Assembly (NCBI RefSeq): GCF_002150505.1
Contig: NZ_MSSV01000006.1
Span: 1-64,000, forward strand
Direction of reading: 5' to 3'
Source: Algoriphagus ratkowskyi
GTDB lineage: Bacteria > Bacteroidota > Bacteroidia > Cytophagales > Cyclobacteriaceae
Length of the DNA: 64,000 nucleotides
A program made the position numbers and the translations under genes. Shown here in pieces: positions 40,928 to 61,860 of the stretch. Each line of letters starts with the position of its first letter. Positions within the stretch are counted from its first letter, which is position 1. Below the pieces are notes generated by a model. That model made no database searches, was not told where the DNA came from, and saw only the letters and a program-made list of their open reading frames with translations.

Positions 40928-41030
40928 ATACGAAATATTAGCTATATAAATACTAACCGTCAAAATCAAAAGAGATGGAATTTTTATTTGATTTGGCTAC
41001 ATTCCACTCCCAATCTTTAAACCCAAACCT

Positions 41031-41603
41031 ATGAACAGACGAATCGCCCTAAGGCATCTTGCGCTCATATCTGGAGGACTTGCTTTAATTCCTTCCTGTG
41101 ATTTTAGCTCAGATGATATCCTAGCTGCCTATGAGAACCTAAAGGTAACAGCTTCTCAGAAGCAACTTTTGGGATCCATATCAGACACAATTATTCCAGC
41201 TGGTGAGTTAAAAGGAGCTCTAGAATTAGAAGTTCCTGACTTCATCTTGGTGATGGTGAACGATTGCATGACCGAAGAAAACCAACAACTCTTTAGCACA
41301 GGGCTTGCAGCATTCCCTGATTTTGCTAAAAACACAGCTGGTAAAAAATATGACCAACTCAGTACTAAAGAGAAAGAAGATTTAATTCAAACAGGCATTG
41401 ACCTTCAGCCGGCAGAAAATTCTGAAGGAGAAAAGGATAAAGCCGTTTCTTATTTCCTGAACACTACCAAGCGACTAACTATGCAAGGATACATGGCTTC
41501 TGAATACATTCAGACAGAAATTATTCCTTATTCATTAATCCCAGGCCCATACAATGGAGCTTCCTTAATCTCAGAATCACAAAATCCTAGAATCAATGGC
41601 TAA
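41031..41603 (+). CDS. Gluconate 2-dehydrogenase subunit 3 family protein, Tat-type signal
   Basis: A 190-residue protein. The N-terminus MNRRIALRHLALISGGLALIPSC looks like a twin-arginine-like signal with a lipobox-type Cys. The body has the subunit-3 pattern: LLGSISDTIIPAGELKGALELEVPDFI, then MVNDCMTEENQQ and YFLNTTKRLTMQGYMASEYIQTE. In known systems this small subunit carries the flavoprotein subunit through the Tat system. The 3' end overlaps the GMC oxidoreductase gene by 8 bases, so they form one complex. Confidence 0.88.
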   Translation: MNRRIALRHLALISGGLALIPSCDFSSDDILAAYENLKVTASQKQLLGSISDTIIPAGELKGALELEVPDFILVMVNDCMTEENQQLFSTGLAAFPDFAKNTAGKKYDQLSTKEKEDLIQTGIDLQPAENSEGEKDKAVSYFLNTTKRLTMQGYMASEYIQTEIIPYSLIPGPYNGASLISESQNPRING

Positions 41604-43314
41604 TCTGAATATTAGAAATAAACAAGATCGAACATATCAGGCCATTGTCGTAGGTTCAGGAGCTAGTGGAGGATGGGCAGCCAAGGAGTTTGGTGACTTA
41701 GGAGTAAAAACGCTCTTGCTCGAAAGAGGAAGAAACGTTGAGCATATCAAAGATTATCCTACCACAAATATGCTTCCATATGAATTTAAACATAGAGGAA
41801 AACTTCCTCAGAAAGTTCTTGACGAGAATCCTATTGTAGCTAAATGCTATGCCTTCGGGGAAGATTCAGAGCACTTTTTTGCTAAAGATGCTGAGCAACC
41901 TTATATACAAGAGAAGCCATTTGACTGGATCAGAGGATATCAGGTAGGGGGGAAATCTTTGCTTTGGGCAAGACAGGTTCAGCGTTGGTCAGACTATGAT
42001 TTCGAAGGACCAGCCAGAGATGGATTCGCAGTTGATTGGCCGATTCGTTACAAAGACATAGCTCCCTGGTACAGCCATGTGGAGAAATTTGCTGGAGTTT
42101 CAGGGAATAGAGATGGGATAGACACACTTCCTGACGGAGAGTTTTTGCCAGCTTACGACTTGAATATCGTAGAGAAGCATTTTGCCGAAAAGTTAAAGGA
42201 AACTTACGGCGGAGATCGTCATATGATCTCTTCTCGTTGTGCGCACATACATGAGCCGAGGCCAGAATTCGCCGCTCAAGGGAGAGCTTCCTGTCAAAAC
42301 AGAAATCTTTGCCAGCGAGGATGCCCATTTGGAGGATATTTTAGTAGTAATTCTTCTACTATTCCTTGGGCATTGAAAAGTGGTAATGTGACGCTTAGAC
42401 CCGACTCAGTTGTTCATTCTGTGATATATGATGATGAAAAAGGCAAAGCAACTGGAGTAAGAGTGATCGATGCCCACACCAAAGAAGTGGAAGAATTCTA
42501 TGCTGATGTCATTTTCATTAATGCGGCTGCGGTCAATTCTAATGCGATTTTAATGAATTCCACTTCCGCTAGATTCCCTAACGGGCTCGGTAATGATAGT
42601 GGGGTTTTGGGAAAATATTTTGCTTTTCACAATTATAGAGCTGGCGTAAGTGCTGCTTATGATGGATTTACAGAATACACTACATCTGGTGGTCGCCCTA
42701 CAAGCGGCTATATTCCTCGATTCCGAAATGTGAAAAAGCAAGAAACAGATTTCCTTCGTGGTTATGCCGGCGGATTTAGTGCTTACCGAGGTGGAGGCTA
42801 CGTGGCTGATGCTAGAGTAGGTATGGATTTGAAAAACAGTATGCTTAATAAAATGCCTCCAGATGGACCGTGGAGAGTAGGTTCCCACATGATGGGCGAG
42901 ACTATTCCAAAGGAGAGCAATTACATAGCTTTGGATAAAGACAAACTTGATCCTTATGGCCTACCGACCTTACAATTCAATGTAGAATATGATGATAATG
43001 ATGAGAAAATGATCATTGATTACCAAGAGCAAATCTCCGAAATGTTCTCTAAAGCAGGTTTTACGGATATTTCTGTTCGTGATGACCATAGAGTTCCTGG
43101 CTTGGATATTCATGAAATGGGTGGGGTGAGAATGGGAAAAGACCCTAAAACCTCCATGCTTAATGGAAATCATCAGCTTCATGCCGTACCAAATGTATAT
43201 GTAACAGATGGAGCTTCCATGACCTCAACGTCAACTCAGAATCCTACGTTGACCTACATGGCCTTTGCTGCAAGAGCTGCTCATCATGCTGTAAATGAAA
43301 GTAAAAAAGGATAA
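41596..43314 (+). CDS. GMC family FAD oxidoreductase, large subunit
   Basis: A 572-residue flavoprotein that oxidises an alcohol or sugar, probably in the periplasm, exported by piggy-backing on subunit 3 because it has no signal of its own. The Rossmann motif is VVGSGASGGWAAKEF (17-31). YQVGGKSLLWARQVQRW is near 115, a Cys-rich CQNRNLCQRGCPFGG stretch near 232 and the GMC C-terminal signature DGASMTSTSTQNPTLT at the end. A separate cytochrome subunit is not present next to it. The sugar substrate is unknown. A strong terminator follows. Confidence 0.92.
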   Translation: MANLNIRNKQDRTYQAIVVGSGASGGWAAKEFGDLGVKTLLLERGRNVEHIKDYPTTNMLPYEFKHRGKLPQKVLDENPIVAKCYAFGEDSEHFFAKDAEQPYIQEKPFDWIRGYQVGGKSLLWARQVQRWSDYDFEGPARDGFAVDWPIRYKDIAPWYSHVEKFAGVSGNRDGIDTLPDGEFLPAYDLNIVEKHFAEKLKETYGGDRHMISSRCAHIHEPRPEFAAQGRASCQNRNLCQRGCPFGGYFSSNSSTIPWALKSGNVTLRPDSVVHSVIYDDEKGKATGVRVIDAHTKEVEEFYADVIFINAAAVNSNAILMNSTSARFPNGLGNDSGVLGKYFAFHNYRAGVSAAYDGFTEYTTSGGRPTSGYIPRFRNVKKQETDFLRGYAGGFSAYRGGGYVADARVGMDLKNSMLNKMPPDGPWRVGSHMMGETIPKESNYIALDKDKLDPYGLPTLQFNVEYDDNDEKMIIDYQEQISEMFSKAGFTDISVRDDHRVPGLDIHEMGGVRMGKDPKTSMLNGNHQLHAVPNVYVTDGASMTSTSTQNPTLTYMAFAARAAHHAVNESKKG

Positions 43315-47972: not shown

Positions 47973-49007
47973 TCAATATCTCAATTTAGCAATTTTTCCT
48001 TTAGCGCCAGATGCCCATACCGTACCATCGGCATGTCCCAACTTTACTGCATGGAACCCATCTTCAGAAATAGGCTGCCAATTAAGCCCTGCATCCTTAG
48101 AATAATCTGAGCCAGCGGGACCTACTGCAATTAACCATTTTTGCATAGAGAAGTAAACTACTCCAGACCTATAACCTCTAGGACCTTCTTTCGGGACAAC
48201 CCATTCATTTTTGCTAGAAACATAGACTCCTGCAATACCTTCTAGCTGATCTTCTTTCAAATAATCACCTCCTACTGCTACGATTTCCCCTCCACCCATA
48301 CTGGTTAAAGAGAAAATGCCCTGTGATGATTCTCCTTGAATAAATGGCGTATCAAATTTTTCCCAGCTTACTCCCATATCTTTTGAAAAATGGAGATTCG
48401 ATTGCGCCCCTCCAGTTCCCAGCCAAAGTGAGTTGCCCTCTGCAAGCAGGGAGGTAGCACTCGCGGCAAATGCAGCTTCTCCTTCTGCTGCACTAGGAAG
48501 TGAATCTACTGGATACCAAGTCTCTCCTTGATTCGCGGTCTGGAGGATAGTCCACTTTCCATTTAATGGATCGCCTATTACAAAACCTCGTGTTGGTGAC
48601 GAAAAACTTATTCCATCCAAAAAAGCCAAGTCATTTTCTTGATGCTTCAGTATCCAAGATTTACCTCCATCCTCTGTTTTGTAAATTACGGCTGGTTGCC
48701 CAGCGGAAACTACCAAAGCACTCATCGCATCAAATGCATGAATAGATCTAAAATCAACTGTGTCCAGCCCTGCTATTATTCCGTGATCCCAATTTTTGCC
48801 GCCGTCTATAGTTCTTAGCCATACACCACCGCTTCCGCTAGCCCATGCTATTTCATCAGTGAGTGGAGAAAGACCTCTTAAAGATGCTTCTATAGGCGTC
48901 TCAAGAACTTCCCATCCTGTAGGCATGTCCGCTAGATTCTCATCAGATTTTTTGCAGGAAAAAAGCGCTACCAATAATGATAGCGCTAGTAATTTTCTTT
49001 TAATCAT
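47973..49007 (-). CDS. Asp-box (YCF48/BNR-like) beta-propeller lipoprotein
   Basis: A 344-residue protein with lipoprotein signal LLALSLLVALFSC (Cys18). It has at least five Asp-box repeats: TIDGGKNW near 67, TEDGGKSW near 110, ANQGETWY near 162, SKDMGVSW near 208 and SKDAGLNW near 303. Proteins of this type are propellers, often annotated as photosynthesis-related YCF48-like or oxidoreductase; no catalytic role is shown. It is 11 bases downstream of the isomerase-like gene in the same direction and probably the last gene of the SusCD operon. Confidence 0.82.
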   Translation of the reverse strand: MIKRKLLALSLLVALFSCKKSDENLADMPTGWEVLETPIEASLRGLSPLTDEIAWASGSGGVWLRTIDGGKNWDHGIIAGLDTVDFRSIHAFDAMSALVVSAGQPAVIYKTEDGGKSWILKHQENDLAFLDGISFSSPTRGFVIGDPLNGKWTILQTANQGETWYPVDSLPSAAEGEAAFAASATSLLAEGNSLWLGTGGAQSNLHFSKDMGVSWEKFDTPFIQGESSQGIFSLTSMGGGEIVAVGGDYLKEDQLEGIAGVYVSSKNEWVVPKEGPRGYRSGVVYFSMQKWLIAVGPAGSDYSKDAGLNWQPISEDGFHAVKLGHADGTVWASGAKGKIAKLRY

Positions 49008-49018
49008 TTTTTATAAAA

Positions 49019-49930
49019 TCAGACTATATCAACTTTTCGATAGGCTTGGATTAATGCTTTTTCACCTTCTACTCCTGGAGAGGCGTTACCATGCTCCATT
49101 CCCATCACACCCTTGTATCCTTTTTCATTGATGAATTTGAACACATTGGTATAATTGATTTCTCCTGTTCCTGGTTCCTTACGTCCAGGATTATCTCCAA
49201 TTTGAATATAGGCGATCTCATCCCAAGTCTTCTGCATAGTCGCGATGAGGTTACCTTCATTGCGCTGCATGTGGTAGACATCATAAAGGATTTTGCACGC
49301 AGGACTATCCACTGCCTTACAAATCATGTAAGACTGATCAGCATGACGTAGGAAAAGATCAGGGTTATCACTTAATGGCTCCATCACCATTACTAAACCC
49401 TCTTTCTCCAATACTTCAGCTCCACGCTTATAGGCTTCTATGACATTACCTGTCTGCACGCCCATGGGTAGATTCCTTTCGAAATAGCCTGGAACCACGG
49501 TCATCCATTTTGCGCCAACTCGCTTTGCTACTTCTACAGATTTCTTACACGTATCCACAAATAAGTCTTCATGCTCTTTCTTTCCTGTGGTAAGGGCTGT
49601 CTTCCAGTTTTCTCCACCTTCTATGACAAAAACACCCATTCTCATGCCCAATGATTCTAGCGTTTTGCCAATAAGCGTTTGCTCTTCTACAGATCGTTTG
49701 AGCATATTATTATCCTCTAATGATCTGAAACCTTGGTCTGCCATGAACTTTAACTCATCGACAATACCACCTGGTGCGGAATTTTTAAACATTCCGAAGT
49801 GGGGAGCAAAGTCCATATTGAAAGTTGGCTCAGCTTTTCCTGCCGCAAATGCTGGCATAGTCATCGCTCCAGAAACACCCAAAAGGGTGCTTCCTAGGCC
49901 AACTTTTTTTATAAATCCTCTTCTTTCCAT
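49019..49930 (-). CDS. Exported sugar-phosphate isomerase/hydroxypyruvate isomerase-like TIM barrel
   Basis: A 303-residue protein. The N-terminus MERRGFIKKVGLGSTLLGV with a hydrophobic stretch and AFAA is a Tat-type signal, so it is a periplasmic member of the xylose-isomerase-like AP endonuclease 2 superfamily. The metal-site residues are plausible: VMEPLSDN near 182, YDVYHMQRNEG near 216, IQIGDNPGRKEPGTGEINY near 240 and MGMEHGN near 278. Members isomerise or epimerise hydroxypyruvate and ketosugars. It lies two bases after the oxidoreductase gene (start at 49930, oxidoreductase stop at 49933). Confidence 0.85.
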   Translation of the reverse strand: MERRGFIKKVGLGSTLLGVSGAMTMPAFAAGKAEPTFNMDFAPHFGMFKNSAPGGIVDELKFMADQGFRSLEDNNMLKRSVEEQTLIGKTLESLGMRMGVFVIEGGENWKTALTTGKKEHEDLFVDTCKKSVEVAKRVGAKWMTVVPGYFERNLPMGVQTGNVIEAYKRGAEVLEKEGLVMVMEPLSDNPDLFLRHADQSYMICKAVDSPACKILYDVYHMQRNEGNLIATMQKTWDEIAYIQIGDNPGRKEPGTGEINYTNVFKFINEKGYKGVMGMEHGNASPGVEGEKALIQAYRKVDIV

Positions 49931-49932
49931 GA

Positions 49933-51243
49933 TTAAATAACTTTGGTTTTTCCAGGAATAGCATGAGGATAATATCCATCTGCTCCAGGTAATACTTTAG
50001 GCATAGCATCCCAAGCAAGTTTCTCAGGCATTAAATCAATAGTACCATTGATGGCTTCATCGAAAGTCAACGGCTTACCAGAATAGGTTGCATACCTACC
50101 CATGATTGCAGTCATTGTGCTATTTGCAGCATTGTGGGCATCAGCAAATTTGTATTCTCCATTGAATAATGCAGCCCAAAGCTGATCATGCTCAACCTGG
50201 TAAGGGTTAGGCTGGTTTTTACGATCATGCTCATAAAGAACATTACCTTTCCAATCTTTCAGTGTGCCATAATTACCAGCACTTAAATAAGCTGTTCCTT
50301 TGGTGCCTTGGAAGCTTTCATCGACGCGGTTTTGTGCACCTGGGAAGTGACGACATTCACTGTGAATCACAGATCCATCAGCATATGTATAGGTTAATAC
50401 ATGGTGATCATAGATCTCACCATGTTCTTTTCCGGTACGGATAAGGCGACCTCCAGTTCCTTCTGCTTTCACAGGAGGACCTTGTTTTACCCAGTTGGCG
50501 ACATCAATGTTGTGAACATGTTGCTCGTTGATATGATCTCCGCATAGCCAGTTGAAGTAGTACCAGTTTCTCATTTGATATTCCATCTCTGTTTGGCCAG
50601 GCTGACGCTCACGAACCCAAACACCACCATCGTTCCAGTAAACTTGACCATTGATGATTTCACCAATGTCTCCATTATGAATACGCTTGATAGTTTCTAT
50701 ATAATTCGCTTGGTAATGCCTCTGAAGACCTACTACCACGTTTAATTTTTTAGCTTTTGCTTCTTCAGCAGCTTTCAATACTTTTCTAATACCAGCTGCA
50801 TCTACTGCTACTGGCTTTTCCATAAACACCTGCTTTCCCTGTTTTACAGCTTCTTCGAAGTGCATAGGTCTGAAGCCGGGAGGTGAAGCAAGTATCACTA
50901 CGTCCGCCTGTGCTATTGCCTCTTTGTATCCATCGAAACCAACAAATTTCATTTCCTCTGAAACAGCAAGTTTTTCTGCGTATTTTTCGTTCAAAGCATT
51001 ATAAGCAGTATCCAACCGGTCTCTGAAGGCATCTGCCATTGCCACTATTTTGATATTGTGACCGGTAGCTAATGCCTGAAAAGCAGCTCCAGTACCACGA
51101 CCACCACAGCCAATCACTGCTAGTTTCAATTCGTTGACAGGAGCAGCATAGGCGCCCGGCAATACAAAATTAGAGGCCATCAATCCGCCAGTAAGTAAAG
51201 CGGAGGTTTTGATGAAATCTCTACGTGTGTTTTCGATTTTCAT
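49933..51243 (-). CDS. Exported Gfo/Idh/MocA family oxidoreductase
   Basis: A 436-residue protein. Tat signal NTRRDFIKTSALLTGGLMASN, then the NAD(P)-binding motif AVIGCGGRGTGAAF near 41, and EKPVAVDAAG near 143, the catalytic-lysine motif of the family. The C-terminal beta-sheet domain begins near 185 (VVGLQRHYQANY). Secreted members of this family oxidise or rearrange sugars, inositols or glycosides with tightly bound cofactor. Its tandem position with the isomerase-like gene suggests they act on the same compound. It starts at the ATG at 51243, 18 bases after the SUMF1-like gene. Confidence 0.92.
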   Translation of the reverse strand: MKIENTRRDFIKTSALLTGGLMASNFVLPGAYAAPVNELKLAVIGCGGRGTGAAFQALATGHNIKIVAMADAFRDRLDTAYNALNEKYAEKLAVSEEMKFVGFDGYKEAIAQADVVILASPPGFRPMHFEEAVKQGKQVFMEKPVAVDAAGIRKVLKAAEEAKAKKLNVVVGLQRHYQANYIETIKRIHNGDIGEIINGQVYWNDGGVWVRERQPGQTEMEYQMRNWYYFNWLCGDHINEQHVHNIDVANWVKQGPPVKAEGTGGRLIRTGKEHGEIYDHHVLTYTYADGSVIHSECRHFPGAQNRVDESFQGTKGTAYLSAGNYGTLKDWKGNVLYEHDRKNQPNPYQVEHDQLWAALFNGEYKFADAHNAANSTMTAIMGRYATYSGKPLTFDEAINGTIDLMPEKLAWDAMPKVLPGADGYYPHAIPGKTKVI

Positions 51244-51260
51244 AAGTATAGGTTAAGGGG

Positions 51261-52244
51261 TTAATAATCAGTTATTGGTTTGGCTTGGTAATAAGCCATA
51301 ATTTCTTCTGGACTAGGAGGGGAAAGTGGTCGAACTAATCTCAAGCCTAAGAATGGAGCTTCTGGAAACCACCATTGACTTTTAGGGATTTGTGGATCAA
51401 TTCGTTTCCAATCTGGAGAACTTATAAAACGCTTGGTCGAACTCAATTCGGAAGTCTCTGTATCGTAGCTACCGCCACGGACCACTCTAGGATAGAGCTT
51501 AGTCGATGGGTTTGTAGGATTATCTGATGTAGATGATGCGTAGAACTCAGGATCATATTGATCTGAAGTCCATTCTAGCACGTTGCCATAAATATCGTAT
51601 AGCCCCCAAGGGTTTGGTTTCTTTTTACCAATAGGATGTGTTGTCTCAGCGGAATTCTCTCTTATCCAAGCATAGTCACCTAATTGAGTAGGGTCGTCTC
51701 CATAAAAAAATCGAGTTGTAGACCCTGCCTTAGCAGCATATTCCCATTCTGCCTCAGTAGGAAGTCTATAGAAAATTCCAGTTTTAAGATATAGCCAATG
51801 GCAAAATTGGATAGCTCCATACTGAGTCATTCCTATTGCTGGCTTACCTTCTTTTCCCATCCCAAAAGTCATATCCAAATAAGGCATACTTGGTCGAGTC
51901 AATCCATCGACGATCTCACCTATTGGACCTTCAGAAATTGCCAATTCATAGTTTTTATCCAAGAAAAGCTCAAAAGCATCCCAAGTCACTTCATGGGTGC
52001 CCATCCAGAAGGGAGCTATTTTTACTTTATGAGCTGGCTTTTCATCTGCTTGACTGTCAGAACCCATGGTATAGGTTCCTTCCGGAATAGCTGCCATTTG
52101 AAAAGTAACTTCAGTTCCTGGGATTTTCTGTGTATAGGATTCAAAGTTGGAATCATTATCATCAAAGCTCATCAGCATTAATGCTCCTATGGCTATGTAT
52201 TTTGTATTCGTATTAATCATGATTGAAGAAAAATTCTTTAACAT
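51261..52244 (-). CDS. SUMF1/FGE-fold protein lacking the catalytic cysteines
   Basis: A 327-residue exported protein (signal around KYIAIGALMLMSF; starts at 52244 or 52220). It has the formylglycine-generating-enzyme fold landmarks: GTYTMGSDSQADEKPAHKV, FWMGTHEVTW, YRLPTEAEWEYAAKAG, NPWGLYDIYGNVLEWTSD and VVRGGSYD. In active FGEs the segment after RGGS carries two copper-binding Cys; here it reads YDTETSELSSTKRF, with none. It is therefore not an active FGE and is more like the structural SUMF1 paralogues of Bacteroidota. It is in the SusCD operon, 27 bases after the VCBS gene. Confidence 0.88.
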   Translation of the reverse strand: MLKNFSSIMINTNTKYIAIGALMLMSFDDNDSNFESYTQKIPGTEVTFQMAAIPEGTYTMGSDSQADEKPAHKVKIAPFWMGTHEVTWDAFELFLDKNYELAISEGPIGEIVDGLTRPSMPYLDMTFGMGKEGKPAIGMTQYGAIQFCHWLYLKTGIFYRLPTEAEWEYAAKAGSTTRFFYGDDPTQLGDYAWIRENSAETTHPIGKKKPNPWGLYDIYGNVLEWTSDQYDPEFYASSTSDNPTNPSTKLYPRVVRGGSYDTETSELSSTKRFISSPDWKRIDPQIPKSQWWFPEAPFLGLRLVRPLSPPSPEEIMAYYQAKPITDY

Positions 52245-52271
52245 TAAATATACTCGTATTGTATTTTGTAT

Positions 52272-55200
52272 TTAGTCCGTTTTTGATGGATGGAAAGAAA
52301 AGATGCTTACAGTAGAATCATCCAAATATAATAGCATCATCCCATTGTTTGTCAATATTTTACGTATGTTCCCTCTGATATTTAAGCCACTTTGAGATTT
52401 AGGGGTGTTGGTAAATTCTCCGGCACCATTTCCCAGCAACACTACTCCGTGGCTAGCATCATATTTACCAAAATACAGTTTACCGTATCCCGTATTTCCT
52501 CCAAGTACCATATCCAAATTCCCATCCCCATTTACATCCATCGCTTCGGAGGCAAACACAGGAGAGAACTGCGTTTGAATAGGGAGCGCTTTTGACTCAA
52601 ATTTACCCGCTGCGTTTCTGACAAAATAAGTAGTCTCTAGGCGGTTAATGAAAATGGAATTTGCTCCCTCACGCTCTTGAGCAGTGAAAAGCTCATTCAT
52701 CTTCACGTTGGAGAAAGACTTGAAGTCTAAGTATCTTTTCTTAAGAAAAAGGACTTGGCCTAAAATCTCGTCCCTACTAGCTGCCGGATATTTTTCACCT
52801 TGAGTGAAATATCCTAGAAAAGCATCAATCGATCCATTTGAATCAAAATCCTTATAGAGAATTTCTGCTGATTGAGAGCTACTCGCTCTGATCTGTGAAT
52901 TTGTCCCGAGGTTTCCTGCCAAAATCTCCACATTTCCATCTCCATCCCAATCTGCTAAAGTCAAATTATTCCAGAATCCAAATTCATGCTTTTCGAAGAA
53001 ATTCAAGGTGGTTTCTTTCCATTTATTTTCTTGGAAAGAAAAAATCTGAATTGGCATTGCCTCCCCTAATAGGATCAATTCTGGCTTTCCATCTTTGTCC
53101 AAATCGGTCATCCCAGAATCGGTTAACATACCAAGATTGACGAAAGTTGGAGCAAGATCTTTTGTCTGATCAGAGAAATTCCCTTTGCCATCATTGATCC
53201 AGATCCTTGCGCCTAGAGAGGTGGGGAATTGTCCTGGGATTACTCTAGCACCTACGAACAAATCTGGAATGCCATCAAAATTGAAATCCCCAACTTTCAC
53301 AGTTCCTGTAGGGAATGCTTCATTTGGAAGTGCTTCTTTTGCTAAGATGAAATTACCTTTCCCGTCATTCAGATATAGCCGATCTCGCAGTGCATCATCG
53401 CCAAGATTGAATTCATACACTCCACCACTTGCCACATACAGATCTAAATATCCATCTCCATTAGCATCAAAAGAATTTGCATCCGAATCTTCGGAGTTAG
53501 CAGCTGAGGTAAAACTGCTCGATTTCTGCTTTACAAAAGTTCCATTTGAACTTTGGAAGTAAATAGAAGCTACAGCATTTGATCCAGCGCCAACAAACAA
53601 ATCTTCTCGTCCATCACCGTTTAAATCAGCGAGAACCATCGCTTTGCCATTTCCAGAAATAGGATTGATCAGTAGTGGTTGTCTTTTATAATCATTGAAC
53701 TGTCTGCCTTTTTCAGTAGCCAATCCAGCCTTCTCTGTCAACAAATAAGTAGTGGATTCTGGCTTAGGAATGGAAAAATTTGTAGCGTCACTTTCACTCA
53801 CATGCAAGGATTGATTTGCAGCAACATTATATTTCTTCGAAGTTTTTCCCCCAGGCCAAGTGATTATCAATGAGTCTATTTCTGAAAATTCACCGAGTCC
53901 AAAATGCAGGGTAGATGTCACCGACGACTGATATCCTCGATATGGGTTTTGCTCCAAAAATTGAATATTCGCTCCTGTGAAAATATTAACTTTGGCTCCA
54001 AAAGCAGAGGAGTTTGAACCTAGACCTGTAAGCTTCAACTTCAAATAATTCCCGCCATTTTGCTGAGCTGCTTGATTTTCATAGATCGAAGCCGGCGAGT
54101 TGATATTGTTGATGATAAGGTCTAAATCGCCGTCATTGTCGAGATCACTATAAGCTGCACCACTACTATTTGCAACCTGATTGATTCCCCAGGCTTTGGT
54201 TTGATTTTGAAAGGATAGGTTTGTTTTGTTTTGAAATATGTAATTCGTCAAATTAGATGAGGGCATGTTTTTTACTAAATTCAGCAAGTCCTCACGCTTT
54301 AATTGTCCTCCTGAGGTTTGAACATAATTGTCCATGTACTTCAAAAAATCCTGGTTGTTGTAATCACGTAAATAGCCGTTGGTGATGAAGAGGTCTTTCC
54401 AACCGTCATTATCAAAATCAGCAAAAAGTGAAGACCAACTCCAATCAGTATTGGATATTCCTGCTAGTTGTCCAATTTCCTGAAATGTGCCATCTCCTGA
54501 ATTTATATGTAGCATATTTCGCATGTACTGGTGGTGAAATCCTTTGCTTACATTCAGTTCAAAAAGCTCAAAATTATCCGGAGCAAGCAGAAGTTTTTGT
54601 CTTTCATTACCCTCAGGCAGCATGTCAAGCGTGAAGATGTCCACCAAACCATCGTTATTGATATCAGCAATATCGTTTCCCATAGAGAAATGAGAAGTGT
54701 GTCCTAGCCGCTCGAGGATTTCATCTTTGAATGTCCCGTCTTTCTGGTTTATGTACAGATAATCTGGCATAGAGTAATCATTGCCAACATAAATGTCCGG
54801 CCAACCATCCTGATTTACATCTGCTATGGCTAATCCAAGGCCATAAGAAAGGCTAGAGCTAGAAATTCCAGCTTTTTGGGTGATTTCTACAAATTTCCCG
54901 TTTTTATTTTCAAATAGCTGTGAACCAGCTTCATGTTTTTCCTTAAGTAGCACCTTTGTCAAATTCACATCCTGATTCTGGATGGACTTTGTATTGTGAT
55001 TTAGGATAAAAAGATCTAGATCTCCATCGAGATCAAAGTCAAAAAAGCTTGCTGAGGTGCTTGGAGAATTAGATGCTATTCCATATTCTTCGGCCATTTC
55101 CTTGAAAATAGGAACGCCATTTTCATCATTTCCCTGATTTACAAAAAGTTGATTTTTTCGCTTCTCAGGAGGTAAATTCCCTGAGTAACACTGATAGATG

Positions 55201-55622
55201 TCTAATTTATTATCACCATTTATATCGACCAACACAACACCCGTTTTCCAAGGCCCAGATCTTCCAAGTACTCCGGATGCATGAGCTGTTTCTTTGAATT
55301 TGAGGTCACCTTGATTAAGGTATAGTTGATTGCCACTTACATTGGCAGAAAAATAGATATCCTCCAGTCCATCACCGTTAAGATCTCCCACAGCTACACC
55401 GCCACCGTTGTAGAGGTACTCATACATGAGGACGTTTAGATTGAGGGTTTCTTCGATTTTATTGGAAAAAGTGATCCCCGTCTGTTCTGGAGCCAACAAA
55501 TTGAATAAAGGAGGAGTATTTGATTCGCTGAGGGATTCAGTATTTGCTATTTTATCCGACTCAGAGCAGGATATTGCAACCATACTGATTAACAAAGCTG
55601 AAAGTAGATTTCGGTAATGCAT
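52272..55622 (-). CDS. VCBS/FG-GAP repeat lipoprotein with ASPIC/UnbV domain
   Basis: A 1116-residue lipoprotein (ALLISMVAISC, Cys19). It has many FG-GAP/VCBS calcium-binding repeats of the type GDLNGDGLEDIYF, VDINGDNKLDIYQ, DFDLDGDLDLFIL, ADVNQDGWPDIYV, SDLDNDGDLDLII, spread over two propellers. Between them an ASPIC/UnbV segment has RGYQSSVTSTLHFGLG and SLIITWPGGKTSKKY near 570. This is the CRTAC1-like family, often found next to SusCD pairs in Bacteroidota; it probably binds or holds a ligand at the cell surface. It lies 65 bases after susD. Confidence 0.92.
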   Translation of the reverse strand: MHYRNLLSALLISMVAISCSESDKIANTESLSESNTPPLFNLLAPEQTGITFSNKIEETLNLNVLMYEYLYNGGGVAVGDLNGDGLEDIYFSANVSGNQLYLNQGDLKFKETAHASGVLGRSGPWKTGVVLVDINGDNKLDIYQCYSGNLPPEKRKNQLFVNQGNDENGVPIFKEMAEEYGIASNSPSTSASFFDFDLDGDLDLFILNHNTKSIQNQDVNLTKVLLKEKHEAGSQLFENKNGKFVEITQKAGISSSSLSYGLGLAIADVNQDGWPDIYVGNDYSMPDYLYINQKDGTFKDEILERLGHTSHFSMGNDIADINNDGLVDIFTLDMLPEGNERQKLLLAPDNFELFELNVSKGFHHQYMRNMLHINSGDGTFQEIGQLAGISNTDWSWSSLFADFDNDGWKDLFITNGYLRDYNNQDFLKYMDNYVQTSGGQLKREDLLNLVKNMPSSNLTNYIFQNKTNLSFQNQTKAWGINQVANSSGAAYSDLDNDGDLDLIINNINSPASIYENQAAQQNGGNYLKLKLTGLGSNSSAFGAKVNIFTGANIQFLEQNPYRGYQSSVTSTLHFGLGEFSEIDSLIITWPGGKTSKKYNVAANQSLHVSESDATNFSIPKPESTTYLLTEKAGLATEKGRQFNDYKRQPLLINPISGNGKAMVLADLNGDGREDLFVGAGSNAVASIYFQSSNGTFVKQKSSSFTSAANSEDSDANSFDANGDGYLDLYVASGGVYEFNLGDDALRDRLYLNDGKGNFILAKEALPNEAFPTGTVKVGDFNFDGIPDLFVGARVIPGQFPTSLGARIWINDGKGNFSDQTKDLAPTFVNLGMLTDSGMTDLDKDGKPELILLGEAMPIQIFSFQENKWKETTLNFFEKHEFGFWNNLTLADWDGDGNVEILAGNLGTNSQIRASSSQSAEILYKDFDSNGSIDAFLGYFTQGEKYPAASRDEILGQVLFLKKRYLDFKSFSNVKMNELFTAQEREGANSIFINRLETTYFVRNAAGKFESKALPIQTQFSPVFASEAMDVNGDGNLDMVLGGNTGYGKLYFGKYDASHGVVLLGNGAGEFTNTPKSQSGLNIRGNIRKILTNNGMMLLYLDDSTVSIFSFHPSKTD

Positions 55623-55687
55623 AATTTAAAATAATCTAAGCCACCCCAAATGGAATGGCTTAGATCAAATTTATAAGAATACTCGCT

Positions 55688-57547
55688 TTATTCTATTCCA
55701 GGATTCTGGACAAGGTTAGAATTTCTGTTAATCTCATCTCTATGAATTGGGACGAAATACATTTTATCCAACCAAGTTCTATTTTCTTTTCCTGGATCAA
55801 TAGGAAGAACTTTGTAAACATAGTTGTATATCGTAGGATCATAGCGATAAGTAGCAAGCGTCTTTCCTGGTTTAAATGTACCAGTGATATTTATGATATT
55901 CGCTTTACGACCCAAAGTCTCATTTGCTATCATCCAACGACGTGTATCATGGTATCTTTGCTCCTCGTAAGCCATTTCAATACGTCTTTCATTTCGGTAA
56001 GCTTGTTTCAGAGCATCTCCTGTAGCAGTGACAGCTGGCTGACCTACTCTAAATCTTATTTGATTCAACCAAGCTTTAGCTTCAGCTTCCTGACCAAGTT
56101 CGATAGAAGCCTCTACATAATTTAATACAGCCTCCGTATAGCGTAAAATAGGCCAAGGAATTTGTTGCCATGTATTCTGATCAACGATTGCTGAGCTTGG
56201 ATCAGTGAATTTTCTGATATAGTATCCTGTGTAACTGCCATTCCAATCCTCTATAGGACTATTTCTAGTGTCTAGACCGAAATGAGTTTCTACAGATCCA
56301 GAGCTATTAGTTTTCTCATACGTACCTGATTGAATTTGACCCAAAGGATCTCTAGACTGGTTGGCAGAGGATCTAGGTTTCCACTGAGATCCGTCGTACA
56401 GGATAGATGCGTAAAAACGAGCATCTCTGTTTTCATAAGGAGCAGCTGCATGCACAGGATTATTCCAGTCAAACTTGGTTCCATCCATCATTTCATAGTC
56501 GTCTACTAGCAATTGTATTGGGCTATTTCCGGCCCAGTTATTATAGCCATTAGGACCATTGAAAAGACCTTGACGTCCACCATTTTCTTGTTTAGCATTT
56601 ATAAAATACCTCGCCATGATCAACTCTTTTTCTCCACCATTTCTAGATAGAGAGTTGTTCATGTAGTTGGTGATGCCTTCTGCGTGTGAAACAGGCGCAG
56701 AAAGACCGTACAAATTACCAGATCCTTTTGATATCACAGCCAAAGCAGCTGCTTGAGCTTTCTGCCATCTTTCAGTTCTGTTCCCGCTAGTATAAGCTAT
56801 CAACTCTAAATTTTTGTAACCAGCTAGAGTTGCAGACTTGCTTGATGCTGTAGGGCCATCATGGAGATCACTAGCTGCATATAATAGCACTCGTGACTTT
56901 AACGCCAGAGCTGCTTTTTCACTAGCTCTACCTGCAGCCATACTTTTTCCGGCCAGCAAAGTAGCAGAAGCATCCAAATCTGCAACTATGAAATTAACAA
57001 CTTCCTCATAAGTAGCTCTTGGTGCCTCATAAGTTTCCTCGCCTAATCCATAAGGACGATCAACTAAAGGAACCCCGCCATAATACCTTAGTAATTGCTG
57101 GTAATAATAAGCCCTCATAAATTTGGCTTCACCTAGCAGTTTGTCTACAACTCCGCCATCATTTGGAAATTTTGGATCTGAGAGATTTTGGATTGCTATG
57201 TTTGTTCTACGAATGAAGCTATACATATTGCTCCAACTGTAAGTGTTGTTAACCCAACCTAGGTCAGCTGAGTTTACTCTAGACTCTGTCACAGTCGTAA
57301 TACCACGTCCAGGGTGAGTAAACATAGCCTCATCAGTCAGAGAAGCAAGCATCTGCTCGTCAAATCCTCCATTACCAAATCCTTGGTAAGAACCAGTCAC
57401 AAATGCCTCTGCTAATGCAGGGTCAGACCATACGGCTGATTCTGAGATTTCAGTTAATGGTTCTGTGTTAAGGAAATCACTATTACAGCTGGCAATAGTT
57501 AAGCTTGCCGCTGCTAGTATTATTAAGTGTTTTATATTTCTTTTCAT
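55688..57547 (-). CDS. SusD/RagB family surface lipoprotein
   Basis: A 619-residue nutrient-binding lipoprotein that caps the SusC channel. Signal LIILAAASLTIASC (Cys21). SusD-like N-terminal region FLNTEPLTEISESAVWSDP, TPR-like helices (EAKFMRAYYYQQLLRYYGGVPLVD) and the C-terminal SusD signature with RNERRIEMAYEEQRYHDTRRW. The length is typical. The start is 13 bases after the susC stop, so the two are co-transcribed and partner proteins. The ligand cannot be inferred from sequence. Confidence 0.96.
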   Translation of the reverse strand: MKRNIKHLIILAAASLTIASCNSDFLNTEPLTEISESAVWSDPALAEAFVTGSYQGFGNGGFDEQMLASLTDEAMFTHPGRGITTVTESRVNSADLGWVNNTYSWSNMYSFIRRTNIAIQNLSDPKFPNDGGVVDKLLGEAKFMRAYYYQQLLRYYGGVPLVDRPYGLGEETYEAPRATYEEVVNFIVADLDASATLLAGKSMAAGRASEKAALALKSRVLLYAASDLHDGPTASSKSATLAGYKNLELIAYTSGNRTERWQKAQAAALAVISKGSGNLYGLSAPVSHAEGITNYMNNSLSRNGGEKELIMARYFINAKQENGGRQGLFNGPNGYNNWAGNSPIQLLVDDYEMMDGTKFDWNNPVHAAAPYENRDARFYASILYDGSQWKPRSSANQSRDPLGQIQSGTYEKTNSSGSVETHFGLDTRNSPIEDWNGSYTGYYIRKFTDPSSAIVDQNTWQQIPWPILRYTEAVLNYVEASIELGQEAEAKAWLNQIRFRVGQPAVTATGDALKQAYRNERRIEMAYEEQRYHDTRRWMIANETLGRKANIINITGTFKPGKTLATYRYDPTIYNYVYKVLPIDPGKENRTWLDKMYFVPIHRDEINRNSNLVQNPGIE

Positions 57548-57559
57548 TTTTTGTGTTTT

Positions 57560-60500
57560 TTAGAATGAAACAGAAAGACCAGTGTTCAGCACCCTAGCTT
57601 GAGGATAATACTGCCCAGTAGCAGCGTCAGACTCAGGATCATACACTTTCGTCTTACTCCATGTGATTAGATTAAGTCCATTCACATAAAAACGTGCATT
57701 TTTGATTCCAATTCTCTCGGTAATACTCGAAGGAATATTGTATCCAATCTCTACGTTCTTCAATCTCAAGTAATCAGAACTTCTAAACCAATAATCGTTT
57801 CCTGAAGAATAGTACTGATCATTTCTATTCGCAAGTCTTGGATCTACACTGCTCGGATTATCAATAGTCCATCTATTATCATAGACGTCAGATAGGAAAT
57901 TACCGATATTACCAGACTCTCCCGCACTAATGTACTGTCTCGCTCCGGCTGCACCTTGTACCAAGATAGATAGATCTAAACCTTTCCAGTTTGCAGTAAA
58001 GTTGACACCGCCTTGGAAAGTTGGGATTGTATTTTGGTCTAAACGAACTCTATCGTCAGGAGTAATTTTACCGTCACCATTGTAATCCTTATACTTCATA
58101 TCACCTGGACGTAAAGTATTGGTGATCGCTTTATAATCTAACGTTTCAGCATCGATTGATTGTTGATCAGGGAATACCCCATCATACTGATAAACTAAGC
58201 CGGTATTCATAGGTCTTCCAGTTGACATTTGCCATTCTGGAGCTCCTGGTGATTCATCCCAGAATAGTATATTATTCTTGGCATAGCCACCATTTACGCT
58301 AGCAGAATACTGAAATTCACCTTTGCCTCCTCTTATACCGATGTTTAAGTCAAACCCTTTGTTTTCTACCTCACCAATGTTCTCTGCAGGAAGGTTAAGT
58401 CCAGTAGACTGAGGGACAGAAGCATTTCTTTGCCACAGGATATTTGTACGCTTGTTATAGAATAAATCAAATTCGAAGAACATCTTACCTTGAAGAAACT
58501 GACCTTCAAATCCTAAGTTGGAATTGTTTGCAATTTCCCAAGTAATAGCTTCATTAGGAACTCTTGTTTCGAATAACGTTTTAGTCTCAGATCCACCAAT
58601 GATGTACGAGTTAAATCCGTAGGTAGATAGGTATTGGTATTCTAATAAACTACCTCCACCATACGCAATCTGATCATTACCTAACTGACCCCAAGAACCT
58701 CTGATTTTGAAGAAGTCAAAGGTCTTACCCAATGAATTTTTCCAAAAACTCTCTTCAGAAACAACCCATCCTAACATCAAGCCTGGGAAGAAACCAAATC
58801 TAGTATCCTCAGGGAAGATGTAAGATCCATCGTATCTCCAAAGGAATTCAGCTAAATATTTCTCTTTGTAGTTGTATGCAACTCTACCGAAATAATTCAA
58901 ACGAGCTCTGTTAAATGCTCCACCACCGTTATCTTTTTGAAGGTCACCACCAGCAAACATTTGATCGATTGCAGTTGAAATAAAGAATCTTCTATAAGCA
59001 TTGAAATTATTACCTTCAATAGTCTCACGGTTTACACCCGCTACTATGTTTAAGCTGTGAATGTCATTGAACTTCTTATCGTAATTGAGGACCCCGCCTA
59101 ATAATACATTCAATTGTTGCTCAGTAGATTCTCTCAAGTTTGGCTCAGCAGGACCTCTTTTGCTTGGAACCAGTACTGGTGTAACACCATCAGCTTCAAA
59201 ACCACTTCCTTTTTGATACAAAGTCCAAGGAATCTGCCAAGTTTTGGTGGCCTGTATATACTTATCAACTGCTGCAGTTCCAGTAAATTTCAAACCTTCT
59301 ACTCCAGGTATTTTGATTTCCAAAGTACCTGTAGTCTGAATGTAGTCTCTCTTATCTTTACCGTATCCAGATAGATCAGTTGTAATCACAACTGGATTTT
59401 CACCGTTTTCGATATCAGGACCTGGTAATCCATTTGGCCAATATGCTGGCTGATTTGGCTTACCTCTCATTTGCATACGGAAGATTGCATTTACACTTCT
59501 AGTTGGTGAAGATCTCAGCTCTTCCCTTGCTAATATGCCGATACCTACTTTTACATACTTATTTACATTTGCATCCAAATTGATACGGAAATCGTATTGT
59601 TTATAGCCTGTAGCAGAATTCTTGTAGTATCCATCTTGATCTTGATAGCCTAGGGAAGTTAAGTATTTCACATCCTCACTACCTCCTACCAGCTGCAGAT
59701 TATACATGCTTTGAGGAGACCAGGTTTTAAGTGTCTCGCCATACCAGTCGGTGTCAGGATAGTTCCATTGATCAGTACCGTTTTGGTACAACTCTATTTC
59801 ATCAGGAGAATATGGTGCTTTTCTTACCTGACCATTTGGCCGAGTGTATAGTCCATTTTGCTTATAAGCTGCATTGGCTGCTGCCCATTCTGAAGTAGGA
59901 AGCGCATAAATATCTAATTCATTCAGCGAATTTGCATATTCTGCAGAATTAGCCAAAGCAGGAAGCAATGCGGGCTGAGCCCAACCCTGATTTACTTGAA
60001 AGGTCAACTCAGGAGCACCTACTGAACCTCTTTTAGTAGTTACAAGGATTACACCGTTTGCAGCTCTTGATCCATAGATCGCTGCAGAGGCATCCTTCAA
60101 TACAGAGATACTTTCGATATCATTAGGATTAATTCGATCCAAACCACCCGCTCTTGCAGGAATACCATCGATTACTATCAAAGCACTGTTGTTACCAAGT
60201 GTATTAGATCCACGAATTCGAATACTTGATCCGTCATTACCAGGCTCACCGCTTCTATTGACTGCTACTACACCCGCCATACGACCGGCAATTGAGTTTG
60301 AAAGATTCAAAGCAGGTGACTTGGTTAGTTCCTTACCTTTTACAGAAGATACTGCTCCTGTAATTGTTTCCTTTTTCTGCTCACCATAACCTACTACAAT
60401 CACTTCTTCTAGTGATTTAGTATCTGGTAGTAAGGTGAGATCAAAAGTAGTTTTAGACCCAACTACAACTTCCATCTGAGTAAAACCAATAAATGATAAT

Positions 60501-60739
60501 ACTAGGACATCCGTTGGACCAGAAACATTAAGTGAAAATTTACCGTCAATATCTGTGACAGTTCCATTTGTTGTGCCTTTCACGAGGATAGAGGCACCTG
60601 GCAAAGGTAAATTGTCCTCTCCAGAAATTACTACACCAGACACCTCCCGGGTCTGTGCTAGTGCTGTGCTAAACAGTCCAAGACATAAAATTAATGTCAT
60701 GCTGAATAGCTTTAAATGAGTAAAGTTTCTCATTGGCAT
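57560..60739 (-). CDS. SusC/RagA family TonB-linked outer membrane transporter
   Basis: A 1059-residue TonB-dependent transporter. A signal peptide (LILCLGLFSTALA) is followed by a carboxypeptidase-regulatory-like domain (VSGVVISGEDNLPLPGASI, 34-110). The SusC TonB-box area SLEEVIVVGYGEQKKETITG comes near 121, then the plug with IRIRGSNTLGNNSALIVIDG and SISVLKDASAAIYGSRAANGVI. A 22-strand barrel makes up the rest. It starts at 60739 (ATG; the ATG at 60733 is an alternative). No anti-sigma/ECF or hybrid two-component gene is adjacent, and the 205 bases upstream show no exact -7 box. Confidence 0.97.
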   Translation of the reverse strand: MPMRNFTHLKLFSMTLILCLGLFSTALAQTREVSGVVISGEDNLPLPGASILVKGTTNGTVTDIDGKFSLNVSGPTDVLVLSFIGFTQMEVVVGSKTTFDLTLLPDTKSLEEVIVVGYGEQKKETITGAVSSVKGKELTKSPALNLSNSIAGRMAGVVAVNRSGEPGNDGSSIRIRGSNTLGNNSALIVIDGIPARAGGLDRINPNDIESISVLKDASAAIYGSRAANGVILVTTKRGSVGAPELTFQVNQGWAQPALLPALANSAEYANSLNELDIYALPTSEWAAANAAYKQNGLYTRPNGQVRKAPYSPDEIELYQNGTDQWNYPDTDWYGETLKTWSPQSMYNLQLVGGSEDVKYLTSLGYQDQDGYYKNSATGYKQYDFRINLDANVNKYVKVGIGILAREELRSSPTRSVNAIFRMQMRGKPNQPAYWPNGLPGPDIENGENPVVITTDLSGYGKDKRDYIQTTGTLEIKIPGVEGLKFTGTAAVDKYIQATKTWQIPWTLYQKGSGFEADGVTPVLVPSKRGPAEPNLRESTEQQLNVLLGGVLNYDKKFNDIHSLNIVAGVNRETIEGNNFNAYRRFFISTAIDQMFAGGDLQKDNGGGAFNRARLNYFGRVAYNYKEKYLAEFLWRYDGSYIFPEDTRFGFFPGLMLGWVVSEESFWKNSLGKTFDFFKIRGSWGQLGNDQIAYGGGSLLEYQYLSTYGFNSYIIGGSETKTLFETRVPNEAITWEIANNSNLGFEGQFLQGKMFFEFDLFYNKRTNILWQRNASVPQSTGLNLPAENIGEVENKGFDLNIGIRGGKGEFQYSASVNGGYAKNNILFWDESPGAPEWQMSTGRPMNTGLVYQYDGVFPDQQSIDAETLDYKAITNTLRPGDMKYKDYNGDGKITPDDRVRLDQNTIPTFQGGVNFTANWKGLDLSILVQGAAGARQYISAGESGNIGNFLSDVYDNRWTIDNPSSVDPRLANRNDQYYSSGNDYWFRSSDYLRLKNVEIGYNIPSSITERIGIKNARFYVNGLNLITWSKTKVYDPESDAATGQYYPQARVLNTGLSVSF

Positions 60740-60935: not shown

Positions 60936-60976
60936 AAAAATAGAAAACGATTCAATTGTGCAATTCAATCGTTTTT
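60936..60976 (-). terminator. Terminator of the DUF3365 gene
   Basis: A long stem AAAACGATT / AATCGTTTT with an inner AATTG / CAATT around a two-base loop; on the minus strand it is followed by a T-rich stretch. It overlaps the stop codon of the DUF3365 gene and separates it from the susC operon. Confidence 0.75.
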
Positions 60977-61626
60977 TATAATCGATTGACTACCGATTTT
61001 TTTGGAAGTCTTAAAGACCACATTCCCCTCAAATCTCCCACATTAAAATCTCTTGCCATATCCTCAGAATAAATGGAATCTATCTTACTTAATACGGATG
61101 CTTCTATTTCATTTGAACTTCCATGACATGCCAAACAAAATTCTGAAGAAATAACAATTGCCTTTGTATACAGCAAAATCTCTCCACCCTCGATTTTTTG
61201 GATATTGGGATTATTTTCTATTCCGTTTTCTGCATTATATTGGTAAGCTTCTAGAATTGGCAACTCTTCTTCTGTAGGTAAATTAGCTTGGTTCCTGGCT
61301 TTAGTTGAAGTTCGTCTGATTGATACTCCATATTTATCACTTAGGTCTTTTACTATTGGACCAGCATTTACATCACAAAATGCTACAGCGCCAAAAGTAC
61401 CCTTTTCGGATACGGCCTGATGTAGACTTTCCATCAGCTTCTGCTGAGCTTCACTACTAATTGAGTCTCCCCAGATCATAGCCTCTTGGGTGATGTCGGA
61501 ATCAGAAAGCTTCTTAGCTTCCATAGAGCTATTCACTTCATCAAACACACTTTTAGAAATTCGCTCTTGTGGTCCACATGCAATCAGAAGAAAAGAAAAA
61601 ATTAGAAAATTTAGGAGTTGCTTCAT
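60976..61626 (-). CDS. DUF3365-type haem-binding lipoprotein
   Basis: A 216-residue lipoprotein (FLIFSFLLIAC, Cys17). It matches the Tll0287-like/DUF3365 family: AFCDVNAGPIVKDLSDKYGVSIRRTSTKARN near 100, ending in a single c-type haem motif CLACH near 166 and LRGMWSLRLPKK at the end. Such proteins are periplasmic sensors or electron carriers, often the sensing part of signalling proteins, but here the domain stands alone. It starts at the ATG at 61626 and is probably transcribed on its own. Confidence 0.85.
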   Translation of the reverse strand: MKQLLNFLIFSFLLIACGPQERISKSVFDEVNSSMEAKKLSDSDITQEAMIWGDSISSEAQQKLMESLHQAVSEKGTFGAVAFCDVNAGPIVKDLSDKYGVSIRRTSTKARNQANLPTEEELPILEAYQYNAENGIENNPNIQKIEGGEILLYTKAIVISSEFCLACHGSSNEIEASVLSKIDSIYSEDMARDFNVGDLRGMWSLRLPKKSVVNRL

Positions 61627-61830: not shown

Positions 61831-61860
61831 TTTGAGAAGACTTGAAATAACTTATTTTTG
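61831..61860 (+). promoter_or_regulatory. Bacteroidota promoter: TTTG-N18-TATTTTTG
   Basis: A -33 element TTTG (61831-61834), an 18-base spacer and a -7 box TATTTTTG (61853-61860), the best full promoter in the window. The expected transcription start is near 61866, so the leader of the next gene is about 7-13 bases. Confidence 0.65.

Follow-up and report, generated by a model that had tools for sequence, protein, structure and literature searches.

The locus considered here is a run of seven minus-strand open reading frames at positions 47973–60739 of a window of 64,000 nucleotides, the start of contig NZ_MSSV01000006.1 of Algoriphagus ratkowskyi. From susC onwards, the run encodes the transporter SusC, the lipoprotein SusD, a protein with VCBS/FG-GAP and ASPIC/UnbV domains (VCBS), a SUMF1-like protein (SUMF), a Gfo/Idh/MocA oxidoreductase (Gfo), a xylose-isomerase-like TIM barrel (TIM), and a Ycf48/BNR-repeat protein. 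The successive gaps are 12, 65, 27, 17, 2, and 11 bases. Domains were assigned by Pfam and NCBIfam profile searches (Table 1). The original prediction for this DNA was a single SusCD operon without hydrolases, which would import a small sugar or polyol, such as an inositol, and convert it in the periplasm by redox chemistry. The open reading frames agree with the predicted run of closely spaced genes, and Pfam agrees with the earlier domain calls, with the seventh gene being the Ycf48/BNR-repeat gene. As was also predicted, none of the seven proteins matches a glycoside hydrolase or lyase family above the Pfam threshold or the NCBIfam cut-off. (The Ycf48/BNR protein has a sub-cut-off match to an NCBIfam glycosylhydrolase family, F510_1955, at 37 of 175 bits, via its BNR repeats.) By Pfam, SusC has Plug and CarbopepD_reg_2 domains, and the sequence of the VCBS protein begins with a lipoprotein-like signal.

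Table 1. The seven-gene run and associated features in the A. ratkowskyi window
Feature	Position	Strand	Basis or remark
Tll0287-like protein, CxxCH haem motif (FCLACH)	60976..61626	-	PF11845 1.6e-20
susC, SusC/RagA TonB-dependent outer-membrane transporter, 1059 aa	57560..60739	-	TIGR04056 904 bits, cut-off 368
susD, SusD/RagB surface lipoprotein, 619 aa	55688..57547	-	PF07980 (SusD_RagB) 6.9e-55, PF14322 4.2e-26
Terminator-like hairpin, 16 pairs, T-rich tail	55632..55667	-	between susD and VCBS
VCBS/FG-GAP + ASPIC/UnbV protein, 1116 aa	52272..55622	-	PF13517 (FG-GAP_3) 1.6e-77, PF07593 (UnbV_ASPIC) 7.4e-20
SUMF1-like (PvdO-like) protein, 327 aa, module B core	51261..52244	-	PF03781 (FGE-sulfatase) 9.7e-41
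Gfo/Idh/MocA oxidoreductase, Tat signal, 436 aa, module B core	49933..51243	-	PF01408 (GFO_IDH_MocA) 2.2e-12, PF22725
Xylose-isomerase-like TIM barrel, Tat-type signal, 303 aa	49019..49930	-	PF01261 (AP_endonuc_2) 8e-32
Ycf48/BNR-repeat lipoprotein-like protein, 344 aa	47973..49007	-	PF14870 (PSII_BNR) 4.5e-12

The locus combines two modules, A (SusC-SusD-VCBS) and B (SUMF-Gfo-TIM), that have been joined and separated repeatedly; this modularity is well supported by gene neighbourhoods. We compared 158 distinct loci that were picked by their Gfo matches (at least 44% identity), after 12 duplicate Gfo loci were removed. (Handles with L, G, and C denote loci, genomes, and contigs. L225, L235, and L246 are missing from this set because the Gfo frame was missed, and L105 is a non-Gfo locus.) A wider Gfo search for named relatives yielded 584 loci, of which the best 80 were retained; a family-level search had matches in 112 of 196 genomes, and 60 regions were taken from 58 genomes (with two second copies); and a phylum sample had Gfo matches in 63 of 392 genomes, with 32 regions examined.

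Among the best 80 of the 584 loci, 13 named Algoriphagus loci have the identical seven genes in the same order and uninterrupted (L106–L109, L112, L113, L118–L120, L131, L132, L139, and L143), so the arrangement is not due to chance. The closest named relative among these 80 is from Algoriphagus antarcticus, with 95% identity in Gfo. L050, L052, and L194 have the same order plus a PAP2-domain gene between VCBS and SUMF. (The PAP2 match is below the cut-off in L050 and above it for relatives in L186.)

Our comparison shows that the SUMF-Gfo pair is nearly fixed, and that most of the carriers we examined have module B without module A. Of the 158 loci, 145 have the SUMF1-like gene immediately upstream of Gfo, and 114 have TIM no more than three genes from Gfo (78 have it directly downstream). 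Just 19 have a same-strand SusD of the window's subfamily at a distance of up to six genes; this count required at least 45% identity, which leaves the other SusD subfamily of Echinicola pacifica uncounted. A Ycf48/BNR gene is within three genes of Gfo in 34 loci, and it trails TIM in the Algoriphagus neighbourhood. Furthermore, eight Algoriphagus loci (L110, L111, L114–L117, L121, and L122) encode Tll0287-SUMF-Gfo-TIM-Ycf48-hisA without SusC, SusD, or VCBS, and a search at E 1e-150 found no SusD match in the same-genus genomes G082, G130, and G178. Module A's SusC-SusD pair is also found apart from Gfo, in 30 loci (L186–L216 minus L194); a PAP2-type gene is next in the same run in 18 of the 30, and a FecR gene is ahead in 14. 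(In two such SusD-anchored loci, L195 and L198, SusC-SusD-VCBS is followed by a 1111-residue protein with ThuA, glucose/sorbosone dehydrogenase, cytochrome c, and CBM6 domains, as found by Pfam on L195, and then by another xylose-isomerase-like TIM barrel, with the Pfam call made on the L192 member of the cluster.)

Phylogenetic trees also indicate that the modules are separable. In a 65-row tree of Gfo, adjacency to SusCD switches at least 11 times, and 6 of these switches are forced by well supported branches. In a 50-row tree of SusD, rows that are joined to Gfo and rows that are separate require 4 changes, 3 of them forced; the two joined Pedobacter rows cluster with separate rows (support 90), away from the joined Cyclobacteriaceae rows. 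Pedobacter antarcticus (L160) has ECF-FecR-SusC-SusD-SUMF-Gfo-ApbE-TIM on one strand, where ECF is an extracytoplasmic function sigma factor, and in Pedobacter westerhofensis (L176) the gap between SusD and SUMF is 2 bases. That one SusD subfamily was joined to module B more than once argues for a working link between them, and the frequent absence of SusCD shows that module B does not depend on it. The Algoriphagus loci without SusCD, the 19 of 158 loci with SusD, and the Gfo tree rule out that the seven genes are one fixed system, as the original prediction would have it.

A single operon is also doubtful. Hairpins are found at 39 of 43 susD-VCBS junctions, versus 0/14, 1/50, 2/126, 0/80, and 0/37 elsewhere in the locus, although the mostly shorter length of those other junctions makes this contrast weak when taken alone. 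Stems of at least 10 pairs are present in 37 of 42 loci (the duplicate L047 was left out), versus a mean of 0.3 in 20 rounds of dinucleotide shuffling (largest, 1). Furthermore, 10 of the 14 distinct Algoriphagus-type hairpins (L112, L119, L120, and L132 were left out) have in common a stem of 14 pairs, 8 of which show compensatory changes on both sides. Because a strong and conserved hairpin splits susD from VCBS, one even transcript over the seven genes is doubtful. Partial termination at the hairpin seems likely, and it would account for unequal output within one run, with SusCD expected above the downstream genes. The Bacteroidetes-type promoter pattern TTTG..TAnnTTTG has 7 matches in the window versus 3.1 expected, with none upstream of susC on its strand, and a scan for sigma-70-type promoters gave 35 matches versus 40.9 in shuffles, so neither scan is informative.

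The functional unit may start upstream of susC, at the Tll0287-like gene, which is 236 bases away and encodes a CxxCH protein; in the Algoriphagus loci without SusCD, the gene for the CxxCH protein is directly upstream of SUMF. ECF and FecR genes are upstream of SusCD in L050, L194, L160, and L176. At the window we found no linked regulator (ECF sigma/FecR or hybrid sensor), and the upstream neighbours are the Tll0287-like gene and, divergent from it, a gene at contig positions 61858–64689 (L105). The 943-residue product of the latter carries a sorting tail for type IX secretion in addition to Ycf48/BNR repeats and PKD-like domains, and L045 has a protein with the same domains at this place.

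By its motifs, the Gfo protein appears to be exported by twin-arginine translocation (Tat): it has the twin-arginine signal, the Rossmann motif, and the lysine of the EKP motif. In an alignment of 159 rows, R7, R8, and F10 of the signal are present in every row; G45-x-G47 and E142-K143-P144, along with the signal, are at least 99% conserved; and E240, H244, and D247 are conserved. The structure model (mean predicted local distance difference test, or pLDDT, of 90.7) resembles YjhC, RgNanOx (a 2,7-anhydro-sialic-acid enzyme), scyllo-inositol dehydrogenase, glucose-fructose oxidoreductase (GFOR), and aldose-aldose oxidoreductase (AAOR) at 15–18% identity, and DgpA fits the fold about equally well. 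With so many sugar and polyol enzymes at this level of identity, the fold indicates a sugar or polyol and nothing finer. We also considered whether Gfo belongs to glycoside hydrolase family 109 (GH109), to the BT2158/BT2159 families, or to IolG, and we dismissed these on the Pfam domains and NCBIfam scores. The domain Glyco_hydro_109_C (PF21252) is absent from the window Gfo, which has PF22725 instead, and the scores are 48 of 750 bits for BT_2158_fam, 19 of 650 bits for BT_2159_fam, and 65 bits, with a cut-off of 355, for TIGR04380 (inositol 2-dehydrogenase IolG). Indeed, Gfo, SUMF, and TIM are each under the curated cut-off of every NCBIfam family listed for them.

SUMF has a single cysteine, residue 148, which is invariant in 37 aligned rows. 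Formylglycine-generating enzymes have a catalytic cysteine pair, expected near the C-terminal end; this pair is absent, which rules out that function for SUMF. Among solved structures, PvdO (5hha, 6e-31) is the best profile match to SUMF. By fold (model pLDDT of 83), Treponema variable protein 1 (2y3c) is first and PvdO is second, at 26% identity. In TIM, the metal-site-like residues E184, D217, Q243, and E279 are conserved, and they align with 3ngf (9e-25) and 1k77 (1.2e-19), which are of the hydroxypyruvate/2-oxo-tetronate isomerase type. TIM scores 127 bits against TIGR03234 (the hydroxypyruvate isomerase equivalog; cut-off 353) and 114 bits against the NCBIfam model for 2-oxo-tetronate isomerase (cut-off 325). 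The window TIM begins with a Tat-like signal (MERRGFIKK), and its second arginine is substituted in rows such as L165, L166, and L222. Given the Tat signals on Gfo and on the window TIM, periplasmic redox and isomerisation is the best guess for module B.

A further link is to the flavin transferase ApbE, which is within three genes of Gfo in 44 of the 158 loci. We searched for ApbE in 60 of the 63 Gfo-carrying genomes of the phylum sample (G082, G130, and G158 were left out), and in 37 of the 60, ApbE is less than 5 kb from a Gfo match. With 124 ApbE rows counted (one short fragment from G568 was left out), we observed 39 ApbE-Gfo pairs versus 0.49 expected under random placement of ApbE. In many Pedobacter and Sphingobacterium loci, the ApbE gene (PF02424) is between Gfo and TIM. 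The arrangement is not constant: ApbE may be upstream of SUMF, convergent, or downstream in the same orientation, and such variation is what a functional link, and not mere inheritance, would lead one to expect. Five loci from the same family as the window (L065, L087, L088, L100, and L102) likewise have ApbE beside the module. In one Pedobacter ApbE, the histidine and aspartate that serve in catalysis and metal binding align with 6nxi. In G521 (C60:8762–9559), the ApbE match is inside an 812-residue open frame, perhaps a fusion, next to a Gfo gene. A literature search, which included PMC8238504 and PMC11334425, found no report of the SUMF-Gfo pair with an ApbE neighbour.

The hydrolase-free description fits the exact seven-gene form, as there is no hydrolase in the 13 Algoriphagus loci, and it does not extend to module B, which has families GH20, GH109, or GH95 adjoining it in other relatives. 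The original prediction itself named hydrolases in the operon elsewhere as a refutation; by that standard it is refuted for module B and stands for the exact seven-gene form. In Belliella-type loci (L059, L066, and L067), a GH20 gene follows TIM by 12–15 bases; GH20 was identified by Pfam on L067 and on L140, the named copy of L059. After TIM, L140 encodes GH20, a sodium:solute symporter (SSF), an AgaS-type SIS isomerase, two PfkB kinases, and a class II aldolase. The AgaS match reaches 372 bits, short of the cut-off of 529, which makes amino sugars no more than a hint. L064 has a GH109 gene after TIM, with PF21252 on this neighbour, and L068 and L084 have GH20 and then a GH109-like gene. (L104 has a GH109 neighbour by BLAST label only.) In another family, an opposite-strand GH20 gene adjoins TIM in L231 and L234 and is one gene off in L247. 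By a count compiled by eye from the Gfo and GH20 match lists, GH20 is less than 5 kb from a Gfo match in 5 of 60 genomes, all of one family (G707, G702, G625, G675, and G568). In Echinicola salinicaeni (L146), GH95 is ahead of SUMF and behind methionine-synthesis genes. Echinicola pacifica (L083 = L147) has ECF-FecR-SusC-SusD-GH95 and then, after 492 bases on the same strand, SUMF-Gfo. Its SusC is 29% identical to the window's and its SusD is of another subfamily; here a classical hydrolase-bearing SusCD set is upstream of the same SUMF-Gfo core. Downstream of TIM, seven Sphingobacteriales-type loci encode a Nuc_H symporter, a GMC oxidoreductase, and gluconate-2-dehydrogenase subunit 3. Since the hydrolase families differ among relatives, these neighbours do not point to a common substrate.

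The window itself has sugar-related genes outside of the run. At 24435–27395 is a gene for a 986-residue protein with a glycoside hydrolase 3 domain joined to a beta-lactamase-like domain. On the plus strand, at 38879–43314, are genes for an alpha-L-fucosidase-like protein, gluconate-2-dehydrogenase subunit 3, and a GMC oxidoreductase. The last two (41031–43314) form a pair resembling LacC/LacA, 4.7 kb away from the seven-gene run, and we do not claim that these three genes belong to the locus. PMC9007349 links LacABC-type dehydrogenases to the use of lactose, in Caulobacter and, on the basis of fitness data, also in a Pedobacter.

We propose that the locus brings together an importer module and a periplasmic redox module, with sugar oxidation as the putative chemistry, and we give this explanation a probability of about 0.5. 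Module A would be an outer-membrane importer for a small carbohydrate, with SusCD importing a glycoside or an amino-sugar-containing oligosaccharide. The chemistry of module B is inferred. Gfo, which would be exported by the Tat system in folded form with NAD(P) bound, may oxidise a sugar hydroxyl, and TIM may isomerise or epimerise the keto product. Electrons would then leave Gfo via an envelope carrier, one that would require ApbE in many other Bacteroidota; in Algoriphagus, the CxxCH protein encoded upstream is perhaps the carrier. The predicted uptake and periplasmic conversion is partly supported, with SusCD beside two enzymes with Tat signals; inositol is not specifically supported.

Several observations weigh against this proposal. 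The sugar hints stem from relatives without the window's SusCD, and they differ between lineages. Some upstream neighbours of module B (uvrA, clpB, methionine synthase, and an rRNA methyltransferase) are plainly unrelated, so part of the neighbourhood is noise, and counts of changes on the trees do not distinguish gain of SusCD from loss. As for ApbE, the sole copy in the window's genome is on another contig (C44), and 23 of 60 genomes have no ApbE nearby. In G641, G590, and G660, ApbE adjoins a second and more distant copy of Gfo (48–49% identity), so the link is partly to a wider Gfo subfamily. The flavinylation motif [DSTNA]GA[ST] is not conserved in the SUMF, Gfo, or TIM alignments and is present in scattered rows only.

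We also considered that the locus might belong to a stepwise pathway for 3-keto-glycosides, of the BT2156–BT2160 type, with Gfo forming the 3-keto sugar and TIM catalyzing a later step. Gfo does match BT_2158_fam and BT_2159_fam, but at scores far under the cut-offs. TIM matches 6wn6, which is named as a 3-keto-D-glucoside 4-epimerase, at 1.6e-7. Downstream of the module, Sphingobacterium and its relatives encode the Nuc_H symporter, the GMC oxidoreductase, a second Gfo, and subunit 3. The window has its own GMC pair, but on the other strand and with five other genes between. Also, DUF1080 (PF06439), the domain of 3-keto-disaccharide hydrolases, has no match on the window contig (C50), and the genome's 17 matches are on other contigs. 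Overall, this pathway seems unlikely for our locus.

It is likewise doubtful, though conceivable, that SUMF1-like, Gfo, ApbE, and TIM proteins make up an undescribed flavin-linked system for periplasmic sugar oxidation. The nicotinamide of the exported Gfo would be re-oxidised via the SUMF1-like partner and a flavoprotein made by ApbE (or, in Algoriphagus, a c-type haem protein), and this system would have been joined more than once to one subfamily of SusCD importer.

Somewhat less plausible is that module B is not catabolic and instead acts in the maturation or upkeep of envelope redox proteins, with ApbE and SUMF central and SusCD an accidental neighbour. PvdO is a pyoverdine-maturation protein, and it is nearest to SUMF by profile; a nearly fixed SUMF-Gfo pair amid highly variable flanks, and the link to ApbE, also fit. 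However, accidental adjacency seems inconsistent with the joining of the same SusD subfamily on separate branches, with tight gaps in Pedobacter, and a non-catabolic role seems inconsistent with the GH20, GH109, and amino-sugar-type genes that adjoin in some lineages. Finally, uptake of an inositol or other polyol with periplasmic oxidation and isomerisation and no glycosidic step, as originally predicted, is improbable: inositol dehydrogenases (4hkt and 4n54) are the closest solved structures to Gfo in sequence and scyllo-inositol dehydrogenase is among its best folds, but the score against TIGR04380 is low, YjhC, RgNanOx, GFOR, AAOR, and DgpA match the fold about equally, and in relatives the module has GH20, GH109, or GH95 genes next to it.

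If the proposed importer and periplasmic redox module form a working pathway, this would bear on how an exported, nicotinamide-carrying Gfo manages more than one turnover, and sugar enzymes of a class that is, to our knowledge, known only from lone proteins would gain a flavin transferase and a SUMF1-like partner. The excess of ApbE-Gfo pairs makes the idea of a redox pathway testable.

A literature search found no report of this exact gene set, which is a new combination of known parts. Like polysaccharide utilisation loci with SusCD, the locus has adjacent SusC and SusD on the same strand, surface lipoproteins, and, in some relatives, ECF sigma and FecR upstream; unlike them, the window's seven genes lack any carbohydrate-active enzyme family and encode redox and isomerase proteins instead, and module B is mostly without SusCD. 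The BT2156–BT2160 pathway of glycoside 3-dehydrogenases, in which sugar chemistry proceeds by oxidation, shares Gfo/Idh/MocA proteins with our locus, which differs in its low-scoring Gfo, in the lack of DUF1080 on the contig, and in the SUMF1-like partner and ApbE neighbour. GFOR, which is exported by Tat with bound NADP, and AAOR share the Gfo fold and are among both the sequence and fold matches, whereas their identity to the window Gfo in fold alignments is about 15–18%, and we know of no SUMF or TIM partner for either. PvdO is the closest to SUMF, whereas the window SUMF is outside of any siderophore locus and scores 82 bits, versus an NCBIfam cut-off of 500. And the hydroxypyruvate and 2-oxo-tetronate isomerases share with TIM a barrel with aligned E, D, Q, and E residues, whereas the window TIM is set apart by its export signal and by its bit scores.

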